Source of the DNA: a virus
IMG/VR virus record: IMGVR_UViG_3300045921_000216
Coordinates: 1 to 44,860 of that record
Length of the DNA stretch: 44,860 nucleotides
Direction: 5' to 3' (one strand)
Position 1 is the first letter of the stretch. Each line of letters begins with the position of its first letter. This document shows, piece after piece, positions 2,713-44,860 of the stretch. The notes under the pieces were generated by a model. That model was not told the origin of the DNA and made no database searches. It saw only the letters and a program-made list of their open reading frames with translations. Made by a program: the position numbers and the translations under genes.

Positions 2713-3401
2713 CGCGACGCCTGCCAATCCGCTAGTAGCAACTCGAACGCGAGCCCGTTCCGGACATGCTCGTCGTCGTGCGGCTCGACTTCCGCCTCCG
2801 CCTCGATCGCAGCACGCGCCTCCAGCCACATCGCAGCGACCGCGAGCGGGACGCGCATCCACACGCTCTCCCACCCGTCTTCTTCGCTGCCACTGCCGCC
2901 CTCGCCGCCTTCCCCGGGACCGGGGTCGCCCCCTCCTTTGTAGTCGGGAATCTCGACGCTGCCAAGCTCGATCAAGTTCGTGATGTTCTCGTTCGTGAAC
3001 GGAAGGCCGACGACGAGTTCGTCGAACCCGATCGTCTGCTCGAGATCCGCGAGCAACACGCCAAGATCGACGCGATCCGCCATACCTCGCGTCTCGTTCA
3101 GGATGATCGTCAGTCGCTTCGCCGTCGGTTCGTCGATGTCGAGCACCGTCACCGGAACGTTCTCCAACCCGGCTTCTCGAGCTGCCCGACACCTGTGTTC
3201 ACCATCGACGATCTCGAACTTCCCGTCGATACTCGGGTGCGGCCGGACGGTGATCGGATCGACGAACCCGAAGGCCTTGATTGACTGGATCTCCGCCTCG
3301 TACTCGCGTTCCGACATCTTGTTCGGATTCCACTCGTTCGGCACGAGAGCATTGACGGACACGGTCCGAACGTCCAGTTCCGTCTGCTTCTTGCTACTCA
3401 T
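2709..3401 (-). CDS. ParB-like nuclease-domain protein
   Basis: 230 residues, ATG at 3401 overlapping the stop of the transglycosylase gene (ATGA). The N-terminal 100 residues form a ParB/sulfiredoxin-like domain with a VNALVPNEWNPN strand-turn and the signature DGEHRCRAA at residues 66-74, which in this family binds nucleotide. A Gly/Glu-rich linker near residues 145-160 leads to an acidic helical tail. ParB-like genes beside a DNA transglycosylase recall DpdB of the bacterial 7-deazaguanine system. That makes an accessory or targeting role in base exchange the best guess. Confidence 0.8.
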   Translation of the reverse strand: MSSKKQTELDVRTVSVNALVPNEWNPNKMSEREYEAEIQSIKAFGFVDPITVRPHPSIDGKFEIVDGEHRCRAAREAGLENVPVTVLDIDEPTAKRLTIILNETRGMADRVDLGVLLADLEQTIGFDELVVGLPFTNENITNLIELGSVEIPDYKGGGDPGPGEGGEGGSGSEEDGWESVWMRVPLAVAAMWLEARAAIEAEAEVEPHDDEHVRNGLAFELLLADWQASR

Positions 3402-4234
3402 ACGAACTCCAGTCCACGTCGTGCCCACGCCTTCGCGAGCGATTGTTCTTCAGTCCACACGCGCTCGACGGTCTGCGCGATGTTGTCGGCACGACCGACC
3501 TTGTGCCGCATCGCCCGTCGATCCTCGTCAAAGTAGTGCGTCCGATACCGCGGATGGACACGGATGCCGTATTGCTCGAAATACGTCCACTCGGAGCTAT
3601 CCGCGGAGTAGGCCGGATAACGCTGTATGACCTGCCCGGTCGTCGTCCCGAGGATGTGCGTCCGCGGCACCCGAGGCCAGTCCTCCGTCAGTCGCTTGTA
3701 AACGACGTCCAGCCATGCCTTCTTGCGGCTCGTCGCGACATCGTTCCTCGGGCTGATCGCGAGCACACACCCGGGCTTCCGACGCTCCAGAAGCGTCTCG
3801 AGGTACTCCATCGGCTCGTCCTGATGGAATACCTCGATTGGTTCGATTCCGAAGGCGCGCAACCGGTCCGCGTTCGCCATGCTCGCGTCCATCGCTGCGA
3901 TGCGTTCTGCGGGCGTGGAAGCGTTCCCGAACGTGCCGGGGATCACGTCGAGGTTCACGGCACTAACGTCGATCCCGGCGGCGTTTGCACGAATCGCATC
4001 GACCCACTCGGCGTATGCCTCGAGGTCGACGGTCTTGCCTTTCGTCCACGCGGTGTACGCTCCGCTGTCTAACTTCAGCGACAGCAAGTTCGATCGCGAC
4101 CCAAGCCGACGATGCTCATCGAGCACTTCACGTGCTGCGCGAGCATACGCGAACGACGTAAGCAGCCGACGCGCACCGTACTTGAGGAAGTCGTGCGCCC
4201 GATCTTCCCCGATCGCGCTGAAGATCTTGGTCAT
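3398..4234 (-). CDS. dpdA: DpdA-like DNA 7-deazaguanine transglycosylase
   Basis: 278 residues, ATG at 4234 overlapping the queF stop. It is a TIM-barrel tRNA-guanine-transglycosylase relative: LDSGAYTAW around residue 56 holds the first active-site Asp and NLDVIPG around residue 96 the second. The spacing resembles phage DpdA enzymes rather than bacterial Tgt, which is about 100 residues longer and has a C-terminal zinc site absent here. DpdA-type enzymes exchange guanine in DNA for a 7-deazaguanine base. The adjacent complete preQ1 pathway argues strongly for DNA rather than tRNA as substrate. Which base it inserts is inferred. Confidence 0.8.
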   Translation of the reverse strand: MTKIFSAIGEDRAHDFLKYGARRLLTSFAYARAAREVLDEHRRLGSRSNLLSLKLDSGAYTAWTKGKTVDLEAYAEWVDAIRANAAGIDVSAVNLDVIPGTFGNASTPAERIAAMDASMANADRLRAFGIEPIEVFHQDEPMEYLETLLERRKPGCVLAISPRNDVATSRKKAWLDVVYKRLTEDWPRVPRTHILGTTTGQVIQRYPAYSADSSEWTYFEQYGIRVHPRYRTHYFDEDRRAMRHKVGRADNIAQTVERVWTEEQSLAKAWARRGLEFV

Positions 4235-4650
4235 GCGGCGACGTCCGTCGATTCTGCGTGCCGGTATGCGACCGCCTTCAGCCCGATCCCGCCACGAACG
4301 TTCTGCGTGACCTCGACCATCAACCACTTCGGGCGAATCGCGGCCGCGATATCGTTCGCGATCTGCGCGGCAACCGCTTCCGTGAAATGCGCTTCGTCGC
4401 GAAACGACCAGAGGTAGAACTTCAGCGCCTTGCTTTCGAGCATCATCTGATCCGGTTCGTATTCGATCCGGACGCGGCAGAAGTCCGGCTGGCCGCTGCG
4501 CGGGCAAAGGCTCGTGAATTCGGTCGCGTCGAACTCGACGCGCTGCGCGTCGTGCGCCGGGAAAGCTTCCCGTGCGAGCGCCTCGGCTGCTTCCGCGACT
4601 GACGCCGGACGAGGCATCGCGCCGCTGCGCGGCAGGTACGTGTCGCTCAT
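4231..4650 (-). CDS. queF: QueF, NADPH-dependent preQ0 reductase
   Basis: 139 residues, the size of a unimodular QueF, starting at an ATG that overlaps the queC stop. TSLCPRSGQPDF gives the catalytic Cys49 and Asp56, separated by seven residues as in characterised QueF. LESKALK at 71-77 and FRDEAHF at 83-89 form the family signature and substrate pocket. The enzyme reduces the nitrile of 7-cyano-7-deazaguanine to the aminomethyl group of preQ1. Its presence means the cassette is built to make preQ1 and not stop at preQ0, which sets the predicted DNA base. Confidence 0.92.
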   Translation of the reverse strand: MSDTYLPRSGAMPRPASVAEAAEALAREAFPAHDAQRVEFDATEFTSLCPRSGQPDFCRVRIEYEPDQMMLESKALKFYLWSFRDEAHFTEAVAAQIANDIAAAIRPKWLMVEVTQNVRGGIGLKAVAYRHAESTDVAA

Positions 4651-5399
4651 GCCGTCACCCCTTCTCGCTTCGAAGTGAACGTGTCGAACCCGTTGGCGCG
4701 CTCGACGCACGCCGGGCACGTTCCGCACCCGTACCCCCACGGGTGCAGCGCGTCGCGCTCGCCACGGTAGCAGGTGTGTGTACGCTCGATGATCGTTTCG
4801 AGCACTCCAAGGGTATCCGCTAGCGCCCACGTTGCTGCCTTGTCGAGGAAGAGCAGCGGAGCCTCCACGCGAATCTTGCTTTCGTCGGGGAGCCCCATTG
4901 CGGCATTTAGCGCGTCTTCGAACCGGTCGCGGAACTCGGGGCGACAGTCCGGATACCCGGCCTCGTCCGCCCAGCAGATTCCGGTGACGACGTTCCCGAT
5001 CGCGTGCTGCGCGGCGTAGGCCCCGACGAGCCCGAGAAATATCAGGTTGCGACCCGGTACGAACGTCGACGGGAGCCCGCGACGCTCGGCGTGTGCGTTC
5101 CCGGTGCCCGTCGCGTCCGCGCTGACGTCGATCCGGTCTGAAGTAAGCGCAGCGGCTCCGAGCTCCGCGAACGCCGGGACCGACAACGTCACCTGCGGCA
5201 CGCTCCACGACGCGCAGATTCCGCGGGCCGCGTCGAGCTCGACCCGGTGACGCTGCTTGTAGTCGAACGTGATCGCGTGGACGTTGCCGGCCCCGTACTT
5301 CTCGAGCGCCCACGCGAGGCACGTCGTTGAATCCTGCCCGCCACTCATGGCTACCACCGCCCGCTGATCGGGCTCCGCTTCGTTCCGATTCGCGATCAT
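4647..5399 (-). CDS. queC: QueC, 7-cyano-7-deazaguanine synthase
   Basis: 250 residues, normal for the family. The PP-loop SGGQDSTT at 19-26 binds ATP; a C-terminal zinc site is formed by Cys210, Cys225, Cys228 and Cys231 (CGTCPAC). QueC converts 7-carboxy-7-deazaguanine to preQ0 using ammonia and ATP. ATG at 5399 overlaps the folE stop and the queC stop overlaps the queF start. All key residues are present, so the enzyme should be active. Confidence 0.93.
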   Translation of the reverse strand: MIANRNEAEPDQRAVVAMSGGQDSTTCLAWALEKYGAGNVHAITFDYKQRHRVELDAARGICASWSVPQVTLSVPAFAELGAAALTSDRIDVSADATGTGNAHAERRGLPSTFVPGRNLIFLGLVGAYAAQHAIGNVVTGICWADEAGYPDCRPEFRDRFEDALNAAMGLPDESKIRVEAPLLFLDKAATWALADTLGVLETIIERTHTCYRGERDALHPWGYGCGTCPACVERANGFDTFTSKREGVTA

Positions 5400-6004
5400 C
5401 GCGTCGCTCCTTTCGTGAGTAGACCCATCGCCTCGGCGCGGGTTTCCGGCTGGTCGTTGAACACTCCCCGCACCGCCGATGTCACCGTCCGGCTGCCGGG
5501 CTTCTGCACGCCACGCATCGCCATGCAGAAGTGTTCCGCCTCGACGACAACCATCACGCCATCAGGCTGGAGCACCGCGTCGAGCGTTTCGGCGATCTGA
5601 TGCGTCAGTCGCTCCTGTACCTGCAAGCGACGAGCGAAAGCATCGACGAGCCGTGCGAATTTCGACAAGCCGACGATTCGGTCTCCGGGAACGTAAGCGA
5701 TGTGGGCGACGCCAAAGAACGGCAAAGCGTGATGCTCGCAGAGCGAGTAGAACTGGACGTCGCGCACCACGACCATATCCCGGGTTCCGTCGTTCTCGAA
5801 CGTCTTGAGCAGCGATCCCGGGTCGACGCTGTACCCGCTCGTCAACTCCTGCCATGCACGCACGACCCGGCGCGGCGTTTCGCGAAGACCGTCGCGTCTC
5901 GGGTCTTCGCCAACGAACTCGAGCAGGTCGGCTACTGCGTTCTCGGCGCGCATCCTCTGTTCGCCCGCCTCGCTCGTATGTCGACAGACGTTGACGTCGA
6001 TCAT
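5396..6004 (-). CDS. folE: FolE, GTP cyclohydrolase I
   Basis: 202 residues; ATG at 6004 overlaps the queE stop. Zinc ligands Cys89 and His92 (SLCEHH) and Cys160 (HFC) are present, with the family loop RIVGLSKFAR after them. The enzyme opens GTP to 7,8-dihydroneopterin triphosphate, the first step of preQ0 synthesis. A phage copy removes dependence on the host folate pathway for precursor supply. Confidence 0.93.
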   Translation of the reverse strand: MIDVNVCRHTSEAGEQRMRAENAVADLLEFVGEDPRRDGLRETPRRVVRAWQELTSGYSVDPGSLLKTFENDGTRDMVVVRDVQFYSLCEHHALPFFGVAHIAYVPGDRIVGLSKFARLVDAFARRLQVQERLTHQIAETLDAVLQPDGVMVVVEAEHFCMAMRGVQKPGSRTVTSAVRGVFNDQPETRAEAMGLLTKGATR

Positions 6005-6750
6005 CGCCCGACCTCCGCGCCCCACGCAAGCGTATGCAACTGCGGCATGACCCGCACGTTCACCATGTACGGATCCGCTGCGACGACCTCGCACAGTCGC
6101 CGGTAGCTTTCGAGGATCGTCCCAACGTCGAACTCGTCCGTCATCGACCCAGCCGGATTCAGCACCGACAGGTAGAAGTCGATCGTCGGGTAGTTTACGC
6201 GAAGCATCTTCGCGAAGTCGTAATCGTCACTGTCCCCGACGACGACCTTGATCGCGGCCCGTTCGACGCTCGGCAGCGCCCGAAGGAACTCATCGAAGTC
6301 GAGCATCGCAAACTCCATGCCGCTGCTCGGCGGCTTGGGGCTCGTCACGATCGTGTCGCACGACCCGATCCACGGCTTCCACTTGGTTCCCTGCGTTTCG
6401 ATCGCGACGCGGTGCCCGATCGCGTGCAGCCGGTCTACAAGTGCCGCGAGGTCGTGGAGTGCGGGGTTCCCGCCAGACAGCACGACGAGCAGCGCATCAT
6501 CGGTCGACAGCAACTCGAGACGATGAATGATCTGGTCGACCGTCAGGCGCTCGGCGTTCCGCACGTACTCCGGCAGCACCGCGTGGAGGCTATCGCACCA
6601 CGAGCACTCAAAGTCGCATCCGCCGAACCGGACGAACAGGCACGGCTTCCCAGCGTCGGGGCCTTCGCCTTGAATCGTCGGGCCGAAGATCTCGGTGACG
6701 GGGAATCGGCGTTCTCGTCGTTCGGCGACGTTGATGATGTCTGCGGTCAT
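6001..6750 (-). CDS. queE: QueE, 7-carboxy-7-deazaguanine synthase (radical SAM)
   Basis: 249 residues; ATG at 6750 overlaps the queD stop. PTIQGEG near residue 25 and the CxxxCxxC cluster at Cys45, Cys49 and Cys52 (followed by Asp) identify a radical-SAM QueE. The usual GGEP-type SAM motif reads SGGNPALH here, a variation worth noting but probably tolerated. It converts 6-carboxytetrahydropterin to 7-carboxy-7-deazaguanine. Confidence 0.92.
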   Translation of the reverse strand: MTADIINVAERRERRFPVTEIFGPTIQGEGPDAGKPCLFVRFGGCDFECSWCDSLHAVLPEYVRNAERLTVDQIIHRLELLSTDDALLVVLSGGNPALHDLAALVDRLHAIGHRVAIETQGTKWKPWIGSCDTIVTSPKPPSSGMEFAMLDFDEFLRALPSVERAAIKVVVGDSDDYDFAKMLRVNYPTIDFYLSVLNPAGSMTDEFDVGTILESYRRLCEVVAADPYMVNVRVMPQLHTLAWGAEVGR

Positions 6751-7115
6751 CGTGCGACCTCCGCCCGTGCGACGTTGCCCGGCCCTTCGCTTACCTCGAC
6801 CGCGATGATTCGCTCGTCGATCCCAGCGAGCATCGTCGCGAAGTGCTGCGCGAGGTTCTCGGCGGTCGTTGGGAACTTGAATTGATCGTTCAGGTAGGCG
6901 TGGTCGCACGCGGAGTGGATGTGCTCCCGGTACAACTTCTTCAACACGCCGAAGTCGATCACCATTCCTTCCTCGGGTCCGGACGTCTGCACCGGTCCCC
7001 GAGCTTCGATCGTCACGGTGTAGGTGTGACCGTGCAGTTCGCGGCACTCTCCGGGATGGTGCGGGATGCGATGCGCGGCGTGGAACTGGAACGTCTTGCG
7101 AACGGCTACGATCAT
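6747..7115 (-). CDS. queD: QueD, 6-carboxytetrahydropterin synthase
   Basis: 122 residues; ATG at 7115 overlaps the stop of the preceding gene. Zinc ligands His15 (AAHRI), His28 and His30 (LHGH) and the catalytic Cys24 are all visible, as is the CDHAYLND segment. It converts dihydroneopterin triphosphate to 6-carboxytetrahydropterin, between FolE and QueE in the pathway. Confidence 0.92.
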   Translation of the reverse strand: MIVAVRKTFQFHAAHRIPHHPGECRELHGHTYTVTIEARGPVQTSGPEEGMVIDFGVLKKLYREHIHSACDHAYLNDQFKFPTTAENLAQHFATMLAGIDERIIAVEVSEGPGNVARAEVAR

Positions 7116-7477
7116 GCGAACAACGCCTCCTGCGGATTGTTGTCGAGCATAGCGCCGGCATCGGGCGTCGGCTTGGCGTGAACGAGCGAGTGCCAGACGC
7201 GCAGCGGTCGGCGATGCGTGCTCGGGCGGATGCTCTGCCGGTACTCGTTCGACACCTTGCACACTCCGGCCTTTGCTGCGCGGCGGAGCGCGACGCCGAG
7301 CGCGCTCGGCTCACGCGGCGGGTCGACGAACCTCCAGATGTCGTCGGCGGTGAATTGCTCTTGCTCCAGCGCGACCATCTCGATGGCCTCGATCGCGCTC
7401 GCGATCCATTCGGCGTCCGATCCGCGCTCGCACTTCTTGATCGCCTTCTCGGTCGCGATCGTCACACGGTCCTTCAT
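7112..7477 (-). CDS. winged-helix-like DNA-binding protein, leader of the preQ1 operon
   Basis: 121 residues; ATG at 7477 has AAGGAG about 6 bases upstream. Residues about 45-105 (FTADDIWRFVD, then ALGVALRRAAKAG, then RPLRVWHSL) read like a winged-helix domain of the kind common in actinophage genomes. As the first gene of the coupled block (its stop overlaps queD), it may regulate the operon or bind phage DNA. A G+C-rich 12-bp hairpin lies directly before its ribosome site. Function not established. Confidence 0.7.
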   Translation of the reverse strand: MKDRVTIATEKAIKKCERGSDAEWIASAIEAIEMVALEQEQFTADDIWRFVDPPREPSALGVALRRAAKAGVCKVSNEYRQSIRPSTHRRPLRVWHSLVHAKPTPDAGAMLDNNPQEALFA

Positions 7478-8507: not shown

Positions 8508-9776
8508 TCAGAACGGCGCGACCGGCTCGGGCTCGGGCTCGGGCTCCGTTGCGGCTTCGCGTTCGGTAGGCGTCGTGAAGTTCGCTGCGATCAGCGCCTC
8601 GCGATCGTCCGGACGCGCAGCGCACAACGATCGGAACTCGCACCTCTTGCACTTCATCGCGCTCGGCATCTTCACGTCCGGGTGCCCGGCAGCGAACGGC
8701 GCGACCGCACGAACGGCATCGACCGCTTCCGCGAGTTGTAGGTCATTGAAGACGAGTTCTTCGCGCCAGAAGAACGGGTTGTCCGCGATCCCGTCGCGCT
8801 GCGCTTCGAGGATCGCGAGTTCCTCCGCGTAGTCCGCTGGGTCCAGCCCGTGCTCGCGAATAGCGTCGAGCATCACGCGATGCGTCGTCGTGTAGTTCAG
8901 CGTCCCGCTGCTCGAGAGCATCGCGTGGAGCGCGGGGCGGGTCCGCTTGACGGTCTTCACCTCGCCCTTCCGCGCACCGGACGCGAACCTGACCGGCTGC
9001 CCGGCGTCATCGAGTACCGGATCCAACACGGGCTCCCCGGCATCGTCGAGCACCGGCACAGGCGTCTTGCGGAGCTGCGGCACCGCCGGAAGCATCTTCG
9101 CGGCTGCATCAATCATCGCTCCCGTTATCCGCCAACCGTCCTTCCGCAATGCCCACACGTACAACGGAAGCTGCCAGTCGGTGTCGTACCCGGCGCGGTA
9201 ATCAGCGGAGAGCGACGCGGCGGACTTCACTTCGACGACGAACACGTCTCCGGTCGGAACGTGCTCGACGATCCGGTCGACGATTCCGTGGAACTCGTAC
9301 CGGTTCGATACTCCCGTCCCGGACGCGCTCGGAAGCGGCACCGTGACCGCGTGCTGCGTCGCGAGCGTCCGCCACTCGTCGATCGTCGGCCCCCACGTTT
9401 CGTCGTAGTGTCGGACCATCCCGTCAAGGAGCGTTCGCATCCCGTCAATCTCCTCGTGCCATCCCGTCGGTCGCGGCAGGCCTCGGTCAACAAGGAGGCC
9501 GTCGACGCGCCTCGCTTCCTCGTCGATCGCGGCTTGCCCGGCAGCGAGTGCCTGCGCCACCCGGTCGGCTCGGGTCGGCGCGGGAACCGGGACGAGCTCG
9601 CTTCGCTTGTACGGAGGCTGCGGCGCGTGGTAGGCGTCTTGCGCGGCGTCCCATGCCCTGCCGAACTGCAAAGCGGCGAACGTGTGTACCGGGCGAAGCC
9701 GTCGCCCGTACCTGTAGGCGTGCTTCCGCCAGCAGTCGAGCGACGACAGTTCGCTGTATGAGATTCGCTTCTTCAT
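8508..9776 (-). CDS. Cas4/AddB-like PD-(D/E)XK nuclease with Fe-S staple
   Basis: 422 residues; ATG at 9776 preceded by AAGGAG. The nuclease core reads GIVDR (Asp167), VEVKSA (Glu182, Lys184) and QLPLY (Gln202), the RecB-family exonuclease order. One N-terminal cysteine (Cys15) and a C-terminal CxxCx5C (Cys376, 379, 385) match the 4Fe-4S staple of AddB and Cas4 nucleases. Probably a DNA end-processing exonuclease working with the Sak4-like ATPase. A Glu-Pro repeat coded by tandem GGCTCG-type units lies near the C-terminus. First gene of the leftward operon from the divergent promoter. Confidence 0.87.
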   Translation of the reverse strand: MKKRISYSELSSLDCWRKHAYRYGRRLRPVHTFAALQFGRAWDAAQDAYHAPQPPYKRSELVPVPAPTRADRVAQALAAGQAAIDEEARRVDGLLVDRGLPRPTGWHEEIDGMRTLLDGMVRHYDETWGPTIDEWRTLATQHAVTVPLPSASGTGVSNRYEFHGIVDRIVEHVPTGDVFVVEVKSAASLSADYRAGYDTDWQLPLYVWALRKDGWRITGAMIDAAAKMLPAVPQLRKTPVPVLDDAGEPVLDPVLDDAGQPVRFASGARKGEVKTVKRTRPALHAMLSSSGTLNYTTTHRVMLDAIREHGLDPADYAEELAILEAQRDGIADNPFFWREELVFNDLQLAEAVDAVRAVAPFAAGHPDVKMPSAMKCKRCEFRSLCAARPDDREALIAANFTTPTEREAATEPEPEPEPVAPF

Positions 9777-9807
9777 CGGGGCTCCTTCGCTCGATCGGTG
9801 TGGAGGC

Positions 9808-9839
9808 CGGAACGATAATGACCCGGTCGGACGTAGGCC
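9808..9839 (-). promoter_or_regulatory. leftward early promoter
   Basis: On the minus strand it reads GGCC, TACGTCCGAC, then TATCGTTCCG, almost the same as the plus-strand element at 12011-12048. TATCGT (9812-9817) fits the actinobacterial -10 form TAnnnT. It lies about 30 bases upstream of the nuclease ATG at 9776. Confidence 0.65.
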
Positions 9840-9858
9840 GGGGCCGAGGCCGTCCAAT

Positions 9859-9900
9859 GGGCCGGCGTTAGGGGCGTCCGATGCGTCGGATATCGTCCCG
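9859..9900 (+). promoter_or_regulatory. rightward early promoter
   Basis: GGGCCGGCGTTA, then GTCCGATGCG and TATCGTCCCG, with the -10-like TATCGT at 9891-9896. Shares the GTCCGA...TATCGTnCCG core with 9808-9839 (other strand), 12011-12048 and 14811-14840. Drives the replication genes starting at 9931. Confidence 0.65.
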
Positions 9901-9930
9901 CAGGTCCGACACCGACCAAGGAGGAACCCG

Positions 9931-10758
9931 ATGGCGAACTACGCCAAATGGCGAGCCGTGTCGACAACGCTTGCGGACGAGAGCGAACGATGGGAAGCGT
10001 GCGACGATCCAGCACGAGTGCTCTGGCTCCAGCTTCTGCTTCTCTCCGACAACTACGGCGCGGCGGACGCCGATCCGTACATCGTCTGGAAGTCGTTCAC
10101 CGCGAACCTCGGATGGACCCGCGCCAAGACCGAGAGAGCGCTGGAAGTGCTCATCGACGTCGGGCTTGTTCACGTCTACGACACCCGACGCGGACCGTGG
10201 CTCCACCTTGCGGACTTCGACGATCATCAGCACTACGAGTACCTGCGGAAGCGGGGGCCGCGGAGGGGCGAGGCACCGCCGTGCAGCGAAGGCCGACCCG
10301 GATGCCGTTTCGGCGCTGCAAACAAGGCAGGCCGGCGTAAGGGCCGGCGTAAGGGCCGGCATCACAATAACAATTACAAGGACAATTACAACGACAATAT
10401 ATTCGGTGGTGGGTCGGTCGACGATCCGGTCCAAGCGGTCTTCGATCACTGGGTCGCGGTCGACGTTGCAACCGGAGGCGGTACGGCATCGGGTCGGATC
10501 CTCAACGCTGCCCGCCGGTCGAAGATTCAGGCCCGGCTCGCGGAGGGCTACACCGTAGAGCAGTTGAAGCGGGCGATCAGCGCGTTCTGCAACGACCCGT
10601 GGCACTGCGGCCAGAACGATCGGCGGACGCGCTACACCGGGCTCGTCACGCTGCTGAAGAATGGCGAGAAGGTCGAAGCCGGGTTGCGGCTTGCGGATGC
10701 CGTCGACGTTCGGAAGGAGGCTGCCGGTGGATACGTCCGACCGCAGGTCATCGTGTGA
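9931..10758 (+). CDS. replication initiator (phage replisome-organiser type)
   Basis: 275 residues; ATG at 9931 with AAGGAGG about 6 bases upstream. Residues 1-110 form a winged-helix-like domain (LWLQLLLLSDNYGA, then TRAKTERALEVLIDVGLV and WLHLADFDDHQ) typical of phage replication initiators. A low-complexity linker rich in Gly-Arg-Lys then Asn-Asp (about 130-155) is encoded by the iteron array, and residues 165-260 form a helical C-terminal domain. The next gene is a DnaC-like loader, the classic initiator-loader pair that recruits the host replicative helicase. Confidence 0.8.
   Translation: MANYAKWRAVSTTLADESERWEACDDPARVLWLQLLLLSDNYGAADADPYIVWKSFTANLGWTRAKTERALEVLIDVGLVHVYDTRRGPWLHLADFDDHQHYEYLRKRGPRRGEAPPCSEGRPGCRFGAANKAGRRKGRRKGRHHNNNYKDNYNDNIFGGGSVDDPVQAVFDHWVAVDVATGGGTASGRILNAARRSKIQARLAEGYTVEQLKRAISAFCNDPWHCGQNDRRTRYTGLVTLLKNGEKVEAGLRLADAVDVRKEAAGGYVRPQVIV
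10331..10404 (+). repeat. iteron array, probable replication origin inside the initiator gene
   Basis: Two copies and a partial third of a 12-base GCCGGCGTAAGG unit (10331-10360) are followed by three 12-base AT-rich units (10369-10404; AACAATTACAAG, GACAATTACAAC, GACAATATATTC). This is a strongly AT-rich patch in a GC-rich genome. The position inside the initiator coding sequence parallels the lambda origin inside gene O. Origin function is inferred. Confidence 0.6.
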
Positions 10759-11431
10759 CGTGTGCCGGGGATCGTTCGCGATCGCCGAGGCCTTGCCCGT
10801 CCTCGAGCTGTGCGACGAGCATTGGGAGGCGATGGTTCAGCACCGCGCCGCCGAAGCGCTGCGCCGGACGATCCCGCCGGGTCTGCACCACGCGCATCCT
10901 CGCGACTTGCCCGAGCTCGTTGCCGGCTGGTCGTCGCTCGACGGGACCGGGCTCTACCTGTACGGACCGGTCGGCGTCGGCAAGTCGCATGCTGCGGCGG
11001 CGCTCGTCAAGAAGGCATGGATGGAGCAGTTCCGCGCCGGGCGGTCTGCTCATGCCGTGTGGCTGAACGTGCCTTCGGCGATCCTCGCGACGCTCGCGGC
11101 GTTCGGCCGACGTTCGGCTGATGCGTCGAAGGCGTGGGACGAAGCACAGTCCTCCTCGGTGCTCGTGCTCGACGACATCGGCGTCGAAGATCCGAAGGAC
11201 TGGGTGCGGGCTCGGCTGTACGGGCTCGTCGAGCATCGGCTACAGCATCGGCTCCCGACGATCGTGACGAGCAATCTCGATCTTGGGCAACTAGCCGATC
11301 GGCTTGGGTCGCCACAGATCGCGAGCCGCTTGTCGCAGATGACGGCACAAGTATCGTTTGCGTCGTCGTCGGATCGTCGGCCGGGTCTCGCGCCGACGCT
11401 CGGGAAGGAAGGCGGCGATGCGGATTCCTGA
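10727..11431 (+). CDS. DnaC/IstB-like helicase loader ATPase
   Basis: 234 residues from a GTG at 10727 with GGAAGGAGG about 6 bases upstream; it overlaps the initiator gene end by 32 bases. Walker A YGPVGVGKS at 79-87, Walker B VLVLDD at 145-150 and sensor TSN at 181-183 identify a DnaC-type AAA+ protein. An N-terminal CxxC...CxxH knuckle (Cys10, Cys13, Cys29, His32) probably binds zinc. Its likely job is loading a host DnaB helicase at the phage origin. Confidence 0.87.
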   Translation: MDTSDRRSSCDVCRGSFAIAEALPVLELCDEHWEAMVQHRAAEALRRTIPPGLHHAHPRDLPELVAGWSSLDGTGLYLYGPVGVGKSHAAAALVKKAWMEQFRAGRSAHAVWLNVPSAILATLAAFGRRSADASKAWDEAQSSSVLVLDDIGVEDPKDWVRARLYGLVEHRLQHRLPTIVTSNLDLGQLADRLGSPQIASRLSQMTAQVSFASSSDRRPGLAPTLGKEGGDADS

Positions 11432-15321: not shown

Positions 15322-15560
15322 CCGGGCCGTTCGTCGTCCGCTTGCACCATGGCAAGACGTGGGTGTACGACGGGTATGGGCCTTCCGCCGGCTACGTCAA
15401 GACGTGGAAATCGACCCCGCGAACGATCCGACGAGCGCACCGCCTCGCCCAAACACTCAACGACGCGTGGAAGCACGAGCGCGAAACCCGCGGCCTGCCC
15501 GCCACTCGCAAGAACCCGATCGCGTTGCTCGCGAAGTATTTCGCCGGCGACACACCATGA
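15270..15560 (+). CDS. small hypothetical protein
   Basis: 96 residues; ATG at 15270 with AGGAG about 9 bases upstream, overlapping the previous gene in another frame. A beta-rich FVVRLHHGKTWVYDGYGPS segment is followed by an Arg-rich helix and a C-terminal IALLAKYF. No known family. The longer frame beginning at 15057 is rejected because the 15082 gene explains that stretch. Confidence 0.65.
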   Translation: MQEAHDSQATTETTEEMTGPFVVRLHHGKTWVYDGYGPSAGYVKTWKSTPRTIRRAHRLAQTLNDAWKHERETRGLPATRKNPIALLAKYFAGDTP

Positions 15561-16054
15561 TGCTGATCGACGTTCGATGCCCAGACCGCGTATCCGAACC
15601 CAAGGTGTCGGTAGAGATCGGCCTTGTTCCGGTGACCCTTGCGGAAGCCAACGTGTTCGTCAAGCAGCACCATCGCCACTCGAAACCCGTGGTCGGCGCG
15701 AAGTTTGCTGTTGGTGTGGCTGACGCGAACGGTATCGTAGGAGTGGGCATCGCCGGTCGTCCCGTGGCGCGGGCTCTGGATGATGGTTGGACGATAGAGT
15801 TCACGCGGGTCTGCACGGACGGAACGCCAAACGCCTGCTCGATGCTGTACGGCGCGCTGTGGCGAGCTGCGAAGGCGCTCGGGTATCGGCGCGCAGTGAC
15901 GTACACGAAGCAGCGTGAGAGCGGCGCGAGCCTTAGGGCGTCCGGATGGACCGTCGTGGCCGAACTTCCCGCACACAAAGGATGGAACAGACCAAGCCGA
16001 CCTCGCGTGGACAACCCGAGAGAACCGCAGTTGCGATGGGAACTGACGAGATAA
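15557..16054 (+). CDS. XF1762-family GNAT-fold protein (putative acyltransferase)
   Basis: 165 residues; ATG overlaps the upstream stop. The body carries the XF1762 signature: LAEANVFVKQHHRHSKPVVG, GIAGRPVARALDDGW, CTDGTPNACSMLYGALWRAA and GWNRPSRPR. The fold is GNAT-like and resembles the acyltransferase superfamily to which the Mu DNA-modifying Mom protein belongs, so a nucleic-acid or nucleotide substrate is possible. Its first codons share 21 bases with the zinc-ribbon gene at 16690, so the N-terminus may have been grafted. Function not proven. Confidence 0.78.
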   Translation: MMLIDVRCPDRVSEPKVSVEIGLVPVTLAEANVFVKQHHRHSKPVVGAKFAVGVADANGIVGVGIAGRPVARALDDGWTIEFTRVCTDGTPNACSMLYGALWRAAKALGYRRAVTYTKQRESGASLRASGWTVVAELPAHKGWNRPSRPRVDNPREPQLRWELTR

Positions 16055-16371: not shown

Positions 16372-16693
16372 ACAACACGCAGGGTCAACGGAGTTCCGCC
16401 CATTCAGCAACGGCACCGAGCGAATCATCTGGGAACACCGAAACTGCCACCGCTGCTGGAAGCACACCCCACCAGAACACGGGACGAACTTCAGATGCGC
16501 GATCGAGAGCGCCCTTCTGCGCCACTACGCCTTCGACCAACCAATCCGGCGTTCGATCCTCAACCGTCTCGGCATCAGCGCGACACACCCACCGATTCAT
16601 CTCCCCGACTGCCCAGAACGGGAAGAGAAACGACCACGCCCCAACCAGAACCACGAAGCACGAGCAATCCCCGGACAGGAAAGCTTTCTGTGA
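16358..16693 (+). CDS. cysteine-knuckle hypothetical protein
   Basis: 111 residues; ATG at 16358 with AGGAAG about 6 bases upstream. Residues 18-52 contain NGTERIIWEHRNCHRCWKH and FRCAIESALLRHY, a CxxC...C arrangement. The rest is basic and proline-rich. A recurrent phage small-protein type with no known function. Confidence 0.65.
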   Translation: MAFREQHAGSTEFRPFSNGTERIIWEHRNCHRCWKHTPPEHGTNFRCAIESALLRHYAFDQPIRRSILNRLGISATHPPIHLPDCPEREEKRPRPNQNHEARAIPGQESFL

Positions 16694-16893
16694 ACACGAT
16701 CGACGTTCGATGCCCAGACTGCGACGGACGCGGCTTCACCCGACAAGGACCGTTGGAGCACGGGAAAGGCCGAGCGATGTTCTGCGACCGCTGCGACGGA
16801 CGCGGCACATTCCCCTACCACGTCGACGACACCGAACCGATCAAGCACGAACGGCGCCCCCGAAGCGACTTGGAGCACACCAATGACCGATGA
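16690..16893 (+). CDS. DnaJ-type zinc-finger protein
   Basis: 67 residues from a GTG overlapping the previous stop (GTGA). Two CxxCxGRG knuckles (CPDCDGRG and CDRCDGRG) are spaced like the zinc finger of DnaJ. Probably a protein- or nucleic-acid-binding accessory factor. Shares 21 bases of coding sequence with the start of the 15557 gene. Confidence 0.75.
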   Translation: MNTIDVRCPDCDGRGFTRQGPLEHGKGRAMFCDRCDGRGTFPYHVDDTEPIKHERRPRSDLEHTNDR

Positions 16894-17065
16894 ACGCCTC
16901 CGCATCATCCAGTACCTGCTCGACCTCTCCCACGGGCACACGCTCGAGTATCACGCACTCTCCGACAACGACGTCCGCCGGCTCGTCGCAGCATCCAAAG
17001 CACTCGCGCTCTCCGAAGCCGCCGGATTCATCCTCAACCGAATCGACGAGCACGAGCACGCATGA
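16883..17065 (+). CDS. small helical hypothetical protein
   Basis: 60 residues; ATG overlaps the end of the zinc-finger gene. Composed of two or three helices (RIIQYLLDLSHG, then DVRRLVAASKALALSEAAGFILNRI). Soluble, no motif. Part of the small-gene run before the HNH gene. Confidence 0.6.
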   Translation: MTDERLRIIQYLLDLSHGHTLEYHALSDNDVRRLVAASKALALSEAAGFILNRIDEHEHA

Positions 17066-17439
17066 CCAGCGCCCAAGACGCCTACAACCAACGCCGACGC
17101 GTCGAACGCAACCGGCCCAAACCAGCCAAGACGCAACCCGTCCCGCAAGCCATCCGCGACGCGATCCACTCCCAACGCTGCCGCCTATGCGGAGCTCGAC
17201 CCGTCGAACTACACCACATCGTTCCACGCAGCGCGTTCTCCAAGCACGACCCCGACATCCACCACCCCGCAAACTGCATGCCGCTATGCCACACCTGCCA
17301 CCAACACCACCACACCAGAGGCGCTGACGGCCGAATCCCTTATGCCGCCCTACTCCCCGCCGAACAAGCCTTCCTAGCAGCACACCGCCACCAGAGCTGG
17401 ATCGCAGCATGGTATCCGGGACCCCAACCGATACCATGA
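17062..17439 (+). CDS. HNH endonuclease
   Basis: 125 residues; ATG overlaps the previous stop. CRLCGARPVELHHIVPRSAF and the later HHPANCMPLCHTCHQHHH form the complete HNH beta-beta-alpha-metal site with two zinc-binding CxxC pairs. HNH proteins next to terminase genes assist DNA cutting during packaging; the terminase small subunit gene is two genes downstream, supporting that role. Confidence 0.87.
   Translation: MTSAQDAYNQRRRVERNRPKPAKTQPVPQAIRDAIHSQRCRLCGARPVELHHIVPRSAFSKHDPDIHHPANCMPLCHTCHQHHHTRGADGRIPYAALLPAEQAFLAAHRHQSWIAAWYPGPQPIP
17409..17437. promoter_or_regulatory. inverted repeat at the end of the HNH gene
   Basis: ATGGTATC (17409-17416) and its complement GATACCAT (17430-17437) are separated by 13 bases. 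Overlaps the HNH stop and precedes the ribosome site of the next gene. May be a weak hairpin or an operator for the packaging genes. Confidence 0.35.
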
Positions 17440-17471
17440 ACCGTAGAACGATCCGACGGAAGGAGCACCGG

Positions 17472-17645
17472 ATGATCGACCTCACCGACCGCCTCGAGCA
17501 CGAAACCCGCACCATCGTCGTACTCGAAACCGACACCACCTCCGCACTCGACCACTGGCAACGACGCGGCTGGCGACACGACGCCGTCACCAACAACACA
17601 GACGGCACCTGCACCATCCACCTACGACGACCCCGCACCGCATGA
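17472..17645 (+). CDS. small hypothetical protein
   Basis: 57 residues; ATG at 17472 has GGAAGGAG about 7 bases upstream, which favours it over the earlier ATG at 17436. Beta-helix-beta character (TIVVLETDTTSALDHWQRRGW, then CTIHLRR). Its stop overlaps the terminase small subunit start. Function unknown. Confidence 0.6.
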   Translation: MIDLTDRLEHETRTIVVLETDTTSALDHWQRRGWRHDAVTNNTDGTCTIHLRRPRTA

Positions 17646-18154
17646 CCGGACGCCCAACGAAACTCACTCCCGCAACACAGGACAAGATCGTCCGCGCCCT
17701 CCAAGCCGGCAACTACTTCAACGCCGCCTGCCGCCACGCACGAATCGACCCCGCCACCGGACACAAATGGATGGCATGGGGCGAAGGCCGCGACTATGGG
17801 ACGGAACCAACGCCGGCCGACACGACGGCCTATCGCGACTTCCGCAATGCCGTCCTGCGCGCAACGGCTGACGCCGAAGTTCACGCGGTTGCGATGCTCC
17901 GCAAGGCGATGCCGGAGGATTGGCGGGCGGCGGCGGAGTACCTGCGGCGGCGGCACGTCGACCGGTGGGGGCGGGAGCGCGTTGACGTGAACGTGGCGAT
18001 GAGGCAGTACGGTGAGACGATGGCGGACGCGTTCCGAGCGGTGCTAGAGCATCCGGCTCTGAAGTTGACGGCGCAGCAGCGGAAAGCGATCCCGAGTGTG
18101 CTCGCGGAGGTCCTGCCGCGGTTCACGGCGACGGAAGCGGAGGCGGACCTGTGA
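17642..18154 (+). CDS. terS: terminase small subunit
   Basis: 170 residues; ATG overlaps the preceding stop. GRPTKLTPATQDKIVRALQAG and GNYFNAACRHARIDPATGHKWMAWG form the N-terminal helix-turn-helix of phage TerS proteins, followed by a helical oligomerisation region. It recognises phage DNA and feeds it to TerL (18985-20448). Four small genes separate the two subunits. Confidence 0.8.
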   Translation: MTGRPTKLTPATQDKIVRALQAGNYFNAACRHARIDPATGHKWMAWGEGRDYGTEPTPADTTAYRDFRNAVLRATADAEVHAVAMLRKAMPEDWRAAAEYLRRRHVDRWGRERVDVNVAMRQYGETMADAFRAVLEHPALKLTAQQRKAIPSVLAEVLPRFTATEAEADL

Positions 18155-38831: not shown

Positions 38832-39949
38832 TGGCTGGGTGCGGAGCTTGCAGCGACGGGTGCCAGTGCACCGTCACCGCCGGGGACGGGATGATCGTCA
38901 CCGGGGACGGGTCCGGGACCAACCCGTATGTCGTCACGAGCAACGATCCTGCGTGGGCGGGCACGAGCCCGTCCGGGTCGATCAACATCGGGAACCTCGG
39001 ACCGAACGCCGGGCACTCCCCGACATTCGACGTGAACGTCAGCGACGCTGGCGGCATCATCGTCAACGGGAACGGTGAACTCCAGATCGAGATCGACCCG
39101 GCATCGGGCGCGCCGATTAGTCTCGGTCCTGCCGGTCTGCGCGTCGATTGCTGCCCGACAGAGGGAAACCTCGCGGTCGACGACACCAGTAGCGTGAATC
39201 TCACGTATGTCGGCGCGTTGCTGTCCGCGGACGTGATCCCGAACGGGCTCGCGGGCATCGAAGTGACCGCGTCTGGCGTCGGCGTGAAGCTCGAGAACGA
39301 TCCCGCGCCGGTCGCTCCCGGTGGCGGCAACCTCTCTCGGTTCACGACCGCTGGTGACCTCACCGTTCCACAGACCCTCGTGGACGCTCGGGCGGACGCT
39401 CGCATCGCGGCACTCGTCCCCGGGCTCGTGCCACAGTTCTCGGGCGTGAACGCCTCGAACGTCGGTTCTGGCGTTCAGGTCAATCTCGCGACCACGGTCG
39501 GAGCTAGCTCCGGGAACTCGCTCGTCTACGGGCTCACAAACATCAGCGGCGTGCCGTTGCTCGTCGACCTGAACGGTATCGGCACACTCGAAGCGAGCAG
39601 CAGCGGTGGGAATGTGAACCGCGTGTTCTCGCATCAGATGGTGCTCACTGCGGTGACGCTGACCGGCGGTGCGGTGCAGGTCTCGAACGCGGGCCTTCAC
39701 TCGTTCAGCGACTTGGGGAATGGTCCCGGAACGATCCCGGCGGACGTGTCGATCCGCGCTCGCGGGCTGCTGCGATCGGTTGTGTTCATGCCGCCCGGCT
39801 CGTCCGCAGTGTGGAACTCGTTCGCGACGTGCCTCGAGAATCAGGCGGGGTGGACAAGCACCGTCGCCGCGGGCGCGTTCTACCAGATCGCGAACGTGTA
39901 TCGGATCGTGCATCGGGTGAAGGATGGTGCAGCATGGGGGCTGGCATGA
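38831..39949 (+). CDS. putative tail fibre protein
   Basis: 372 residues; ATG overlaps the previous stop. An N-terminal CGACSDGCQC cluster is followed by repetitive beta-strand and Gly/Asn-rich segments (NGNGELQIEI, then GASSGNSLVYGL), typical of trimeric fibres. Candidate receptor-binding protein of this phage. Confidence 0.6.
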   Translation: MAGCGACSDGCQCTVTAGDGMIVTGDGSGTNPYVVTSNDPAWAGTSPSGSINIGNLGPNAGHSPTFDVNVSDAGGIIVNGNGELQIEIDPASGAPISLGPAGLRVDCCPTEGNLAVDDTSSVNLTYVGALLSADVIPNGLAGIEVTASGVGVKLENDPAPVAPGGGNLSRFTTAGDLTVPQTLVDARADARIAALVPGLVPQFSGVNASNVGSGVQVNLATTVGASSGNSLVYGLTNISGVPLLVDLNGIGTLEASSSGGNVNRVFSHQMVLTAVTLTGGAVQVSNAGLHSFSDLGNGPGTIPADVSIRARGLLRSVVFMPPGSSAVWNSFATCLENQAGWTSTVAAGAFYQIANVYRIVHRVKDGAAWGLA

Positions 39950-44676: not shown

Positions 44677-44860
44677 CTACAGCAGCTCGCAGCACGGGCA
44701 GAAGTGCACGTCTGCGACTGCATCGTCCTCGGACATCGAACCTTCGTCGATCATGTCCTCGTAGATCGCGACGGCGACGTCGACGAAGGTGTCGGCCTCG
44801 ATCGTCCGCGGCTGGGCGGCGTCGTGCCGGGAGAGCGTGCGGGCGATGTCTCGGCAGCCG
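44677..44860 (-). CDS. small hypothetical early protein, C-terminal part (wraps to 1-255)
   Basis: The 3' end of the gene whose 5' end is at 1-255 in this window. Stop TAG at 44677-44679. Joining the two window ends gives 87 residues. Encodes the same C-terminal cysteine motif followed by ELL. Confidence 0.75.
   Translation of the reverse strand, partial: GCRDIARTLSRHDAAQPRTIEADTFVDVAVAIYEDMIDEGSMSEDDAVADVHFCPCCELL
44686..44860. repeat. terminal overlap of the contig (copy of 1-175)
   Basis: 175 bases matching positions 1-175 with one difference (44733 A versus 48 T). Shows that the sequence is circular as assembled, or terminally redundant. The mismatch suggests a population variant or a sequencing error. 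Confidence 0.9.

Follow-up and report, generated by a model that had tools for sequence, protein, structure and literature searches.

Introduction

To our knowledge, the replication origin has been located in few phages. In phage lambda, four iterons followed by a 39-bp AT-rich tract lie within gene O, whose product has a flexible linker between a domain that binds DNA and one that binds P (PMC6022878, PMC7466680). Two of these iterons plus the AT-rich tract form the minimal fragment competent for unwinding (PMC6022878, PMC7466680). For the parABS RepA replicons of mycobacteriophages (Miko, Rachaly, and Jeeves), which serve an extrachromosomal prophage, an origin has been proposed, by analogy to lambda, to lie inside repA or immediately upstream of it, and no repeated sequence motifs were reported in this region (PMC7157519).

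Here, we analyze a complete-looking virus record of 44,860 nucleotides (IMG/VR record IMGVR_UViG_3300045921_000216, positions 1 to 44,860), referred to as the window. A preliminary description made from its sequence had placed a replication origin inside the initiator gene, in the part that encodes a linker, and our analysis supports this reading. The two-part signal found there is very probably the point at which copying of the phage DNA starts.

An initiator gene followed by a DnaC-like helicase loader gene

The proposed origin lies in a gene whose domains, along with the loader gene downstream, are as follows.

9931..10758, + strand: replication initiator gene, 275 aa (PHROG and tblastn matches)
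9931..10251, + strand: N-terminal winged-helix domain, residues 1-107, the predicted repeat-binding domain (AlphaFold2)
10303..10416, + strand: disordered linker, residues 125-162, holding the putative origin (AlphaFold2 pLDDT < 50)
10426..10722, + strand: conserved C-terminal helical domain, residues 166-264, with a predicted loader or helicase contact (homology and AlphaFold2)
10727..11431, + strand: DnaC/DnaI/IstB-like AAA+ helicase loader gene, overlapping the 3' end of the initiator gene (phrog_50 and Pfam IstB_IS21)

The initiator gene is preceded by a divergent intergenic region and has a good ribosome-binding site (AGGAGG). The C-terminal part of the protein matches the replication initiation family phrog_16167 (E = 4e-11), its N-terminal part weakly matches another such family, phrog_1408 (E = 1.5e-4), and tblastn with the initiator returned proteins of VvAW1 and P12026 that are annotated as functioning in replication initiation. 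The C-terminal helical domain shares 33-44% identity with eight phage initiators, and the N-terminal domain can be aligned with the N-terminal domains of other phage initiators. AlphaFold2 predicts a winged-helix-like fold at residues 13-107, in the order helix-strand-helix-helix-strand-strand, with a pLDDT of 81-92 over most of the domain. When the initiator model was compared to the PDB using Foldseek, the matches were mostly winged-helix regulators, none of them significant by E-value, while the best matches in BFVD include phage replisome organizers and initiators. A profile search of solved structures found no relevant match to the initiator, and no Pfam match was found to initiators of the Rep_3 type (iteron plasmid Rep_3/RepA origins).

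The DnaC-like loader that the preliminary description had recognized next to the initiator was confirmed by matches to phrog_50 (DnaC-like helicase loader, E = 3e-30) and Pfam IstB_IS21 (E = 1e-8); NCBIfam PRK08116 and DnaI models also match, with scores under their cut-offs. We placed the start of this gene at the GTG at 10727 because AAGGAG is present at 10714.

The linker-coding segment contains two adjacent tandem arrays

Two features make up the proposed origin.

10330..10360, + strand: GC-rich iteron array, 2.6 copies of GGCCGGCGTAAG with a GCCGGC palindrome core in each unit (TRF score 62)
10361..10410, no strand assigned: putative DNA unwinding element containing an ACAANN hexamer array at 10364-10403 (AT content, stability, and lag 6)

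The preliminary description had reported two kinds of 12-base repeats, one GC-rich and one AT-rich, at 10331-10404. The repeats are there, and the GC-rich one was described correctly except that its array begins one base earlier, at 10330. This array consists of two copies of GGCCGGCGTAAG and a partial GGCCGGC, with a 100% match in Tandem Repeats Finder (TRF), and its 12-bp periodicity (19/19 positions) was significant when synonymous codons were resampled and the peptide was kept (p = 0.001). Three GCCGGC motifs lie within 60 bp at this array, the only such cluster in the genome. The AT-rich array at 10361-10404 reads ATCACAATAACA, ATTACAAGGACA, and ATTACAACGACA, followed by ATATATTC; the period of this array is in fact 6, not 12 (lag-6 z = 3.6, lag-12 z = 4.9), and the stretch directly 3' of the GC-rich array at 10364-10403, ACAATAACAATTACAAGGACAATTACAACGACAATATATT, is better described as six ACAANN hexamers. 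Both arrays correspond to codons 134-158, inside the predicted disordered linker between the winged-helix and helical domains, where the preliminary description had located them. The pair at 10330 and 10370 is the highest-scoring pairing of a long-period and a short-period array in the window.

At 68% AT, compared to 35% for the genome, 10361-10410 ranks first among the 50-bp segments of the 44.9-kb genome. Nearest-neighbour energies likewise place the genome's least stable DNA at 10361-10410 for segment lengths of 30, 40, 50, 60, and 80 bp, at 3.9 to 5.5 standard deviations from the genome mean.

We consider it highly likely that the linker-coding DNA at 10330-10404 is the replication origin of the phage, composed of lambda-like iterons and an unwinding element and used by the initiator and loader. 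In the mechanism that we propose, the initiator would bind the GC-rich 12-bp iterons through its winged-helix domain, and this binding would strain the AT-rich hexamer array alongside, where the duplex is weakest in the genome, until it melted. The C-terminal domain would then pass the strand thus opened to the product of the neighbouring gene, the DnaC/IstB-like loader, which would load the host DnaB-type helicase, and replication would start at the linker segment.

Disordered linkers tend to be repetitive, and the repeats might instead be merely a low-complexity hydrophilic linker (GRRKGRRKGRHHNNNYKDNYNDN) grown by slippage, in DNA without a function of its own. The array periods of 12 and 6 are both multiples of three and thus in frame, so for this phage taken alone the repeats could be peptide repeats. 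Moreover, the residues themselves use A-rich codons, and the AT excess of the AT-rich part over synonymous codons encoding the same peptide is marginal (p = 0.045). Against this explanation, the stability minimum of the whole genome falls at the array, and we regard this explanation as improbable, an assessment to which the relatives described below also contribute.

Other candidate sites in the window

One further copy of the iteron unit is present outside the array.

9860..9871, + strand: lone upstream copy, GGCCGGCGTTAG, a possible autoregulatory site in the divergent intergenic region upstream of the initiator gene

This is the sole copy of the array unit with one mismatch elsewhere in the genome, and the genome has three occurrences of the pattern GGCCGGCGT[AT]AG, two in the array and one at 9860-9871. 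The upstream copy hints that the initiator might repress its own promoter; no match to a sigma-70-type promoter or a terminator was found in the region. The same copy speaks for the alternative that the iterons are a regulatory site of the initiator, acting in autorepression or in handcuffing copy-number control, with replication starting elsewhere, for example in the intergenic region at 9780-9930. That region, however, contains neither an array nor a stability minimum, and in lambdoid phages the O-binding array within the gene is the origin itself (PMC7466680). A purely regulatory role is therefore very unlikely.

The preliminary description had offered the cumulative GC-skew minimum as a check, and this did not bear out an origin at the arrays. 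The global minimum is at 17758, with only a local minimum near the initiator, at 9562, where gene orientation switches. GC skew was therefore rejected as support for the linker origin. An origin near 17.8 kb, where the cumulative skew is lowest, is nevertheless the least probable of the alternatives and barely credible, since the dip is produced by a short C-rich stretch adjoining the terminase small subunit gene, and the genome's stability minimum is located elsewhere. The stretch in question, within 16500-18000, combines strong negative GC skew with positive AT skew and sets the global minimum. A weak 24-bp tandem repeat lies near this minimum, at 17501-17551.

The anatomy, but not the protein, resembles that of the lambda origin

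The parallel to lambda drawn in the preliminary description holds for the anatomy of iterons, 3' AT-rich tract, and linker-coding middle. As in the origins of lambda, Stx phages, and other lambdoid phages, the proposed origin lies in the middle of the initiator gene, where the linker is encoded, an AT-rich tract of ~40 bp is on the 3' side of the iterons (here, 10361-10410 after 10330-10360), the coding strand is A-rich, and the loader gene is directly downstream. When the same scripts were applied to lambda, the least stable 40-mer of gene O started at 39122, directly after iteron 4. The iterons themselves differ: lambda has four 18-bp dyad-symmetric iterons at 20-24 bp spacing, whereas the window has ~2.6 tandem 12-bp units in which only the 6-bp GCCGGC core is palindromic. 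As two lambda iterons with the AT-rich tract suffice for unwinding, 2.6 units are not too few.

The parallel does not extend to the proteins. The window loader is a DnaC/IstB-like AAA+ protein rather than lambda P, the initiator has no Pfam match to the phage O family and only a weak C-terminal match to the O-like phrog_18020, and homology to the lambda O DNA-binding domain was not detected. By analogy, then, the window origin appears to work like that of lambda while standing outside that family. With the parABS RepA replicons it shares a proposed position at or in the initiator gene, argued from lambda; those replicons differ in having no repeat motifs and in serving an extrachromosomal prophage (PMC7157519).

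Linker arrays recur in related and unrelated phage initiators

The family set had 100 members, or 56 after clustering at 80%: the window itself (retained among the 56), eight annotated phages, and 91 loci that a C-terminal domain alignment recovered from IMG/VR and GTDB. We defined a linker array as a TRF array no more than 200 nt upstream of the C-terminal domain. Such an array is present in 52 of the 56 nonredundant initiators, compared to 5.8 expected from the 10% rate in windows elsewhere in the same loci. With a TRF score of at least 50, arrays were found in 45/56 linkers, 1/56 N-terminal parts, and 0/56 C-terminal parts. Three of the four members without an array are shorter proteins in which the usual type of N-terminal domain and linker cannot be recognized; the fourth, annotated as replication protein O (L005), has lambda-type repeats spaced 22 bp apart.

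PHROG 16167/TIGR02220-like initiators (Vibrio phage VvAW1, Marinomonas phage P12026, and Thalassomonas phage BA3) have a C-terminal domain homologous to that of the window protein and a tandem linker array just upstream of it, and the predicted N-terminal winged-helix domain and disordered linker of the window protein are a further likeness. They differ in their unrelated repeat units, their mostly AT-richer genomes, and an N-terminal domain to which that of the window is only distantly related. No close relatives of the window were found. Scans of IMG/VR with the initiator or loader protein singly had no matches, nor did exact copies of the 24-bp array turn up there; a terminase search of IMG/VR gave one relative, at 41% identity. 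Among relatives sharing DUF2303 (L002-L004), no recognizable initiator homologue was found, and in one of them (L003) a short initiator-like gene is followed by GACCC repeats beside an AT-rich patch.

A second sample consisted of actinophage initiators found with the N-terminal domain of one family member (L059), in which the region 3' of this domain was examined. All 14 actinophages, hand-picked for spread from 453 records and including the close relatives Pacc40 and BuzzLyseyear, have a linker array, against a control rate of 0.078. With arrays in 52/56 family members and 14/14 actinophages, the array in the window is not an accident of one gene. Actinophage RepA-like initiators (Brujita, Charlie, Attis, Alderaan, and others) have an N-terminal domain related to that of L059; they resemble the window in their GC-rich genomes and, in several cases, in a long followed by a short linker array, and differ in their C-terminal parts and in a short array that is usually GGAACAGG, 8 bp. 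They were not recovered by tblastn with the window's own N-terminal domain. GGAACAGG, with a period of 8, is the commonest actinophage array unit, and linker arrays of it (L108-L121) are shared by phages of Mycobacterium, Gordonia, Arthrobacter, and Propionibacterium. No report of such linker arrays or of the GGAACAGG array was found in the open-access literature, nor was the sequence GGAACAGGGGAACAG found in open-access papers.

Most repeat units are unrelated and differ widely between family members, with periods of 5, 7, 8, 11, 22, and 23 bp among the relatives. In 30/49 linker arrays the lowest lag reaching significance is not divisible by three, compared to 8/37 arrays elsewhere in the same loci (Fisher p = 4e-4). 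Repeats that are out of frame cannot encode a repeated peptide and are difficult to extend by single slippage events, since one slipped unit would break the gene; judged from sequence, this points to selection on these arrays as DNA rather than as peptide. GGAACAG-like units have a period of 7 in Marinomonas phage P12026 and of 6 in Janthinobacterium prophages, placing a similar DNA word at different spacings to the reading frame. The slippage explanation is thereby weakened, but only weakened, because the controls were ordinary windows and arrays rather than other disordered linkers.

Duplex stability is unusually low just 3' of the arrays (median percentile of 0.032, compared to 0.147 for control spans) and, to a lesser degree, 5' of them (0.051). 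Repeat and DNA-binding domain covary weakly (partial Mantel r = 0.10, p = 0.013), and significance is lost when close pairs are removed. By eye, several GC-rich members (L043, L052, L059, L072, L097, and others) have short hairpin-like palindromes after the array, such as GTTCCTTCGGAAC and GTCGAGC...GCTCGAC.

Where both occur, a long-period array usually precedes a short-period array

We classed arrays (TRF score 30) as long if their period was 10 bp or more and as short if it was below that. Long and short arrays occur together in 34 of 66 linkers, compared to 10 of 990 control windows, and the long array comes first in 32/34 of these linkers and 0/10 of these controls; this rule was tested on the data in which it was noticed. 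Of the long arrays, 21/38 have a period of 11 bp, and the short periods are 5-8 bp; the window obeys the rule with 12 bp and then 6 bp. Short arrays are richer in A than T on the coding strand in 56/61 cases, although A-richness alone proves little because hydrophilic linkers favour such codons. By sequence comparison, the two-part layout appears to recur in dozens of unrelated phages. The order and period classes of the arrays are conserved across unrelated repeat sequences, a further argument against linkers grown by slippage and for the origin reading.

More tentatively, initiator linkers could carry a common phage origin grammar that is kept as domains, repeats, and frames change. An array spaced by the helical turn (~11 bp, 12 here) would serve duplex binding, and a short-period array (5-8 bp, with an A-rich coding strand) would act as a sequence-specific single-strand or unwinding element, like DnaA-boxes and DnaA-trios. 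Should this layout prove real, tandem arrays in the initiator linker would allow the origin to be read from sequence in a large class of phages, many mycobacteriophages and Gordonia phages among them. The reasons for the differing periods and fixed order of the two arrays could then also be tested, as could the way in which a linker that must encode protein accommodates a DNA signal out of frame.

Other features of the genome

The window has a direct terminal repeat of 175 bp (1-175 and 44686-44860) with one mismatch, at position 48. Two stretches, 3401-7314 (- strand) and 15359-16051 (+ strand), point to possibly two DNA hypermodification systems in this phage: a preQ0/queuosine set comprising QueC, GTP cyclohydrolase I, a QueD-like PTPS, and a radical SAM QueE-like protein is grouped with a queuine tRNA-ribosyltransferase-like protein, and the gene for a Mom-like DNA modification protein lies apart from this group.
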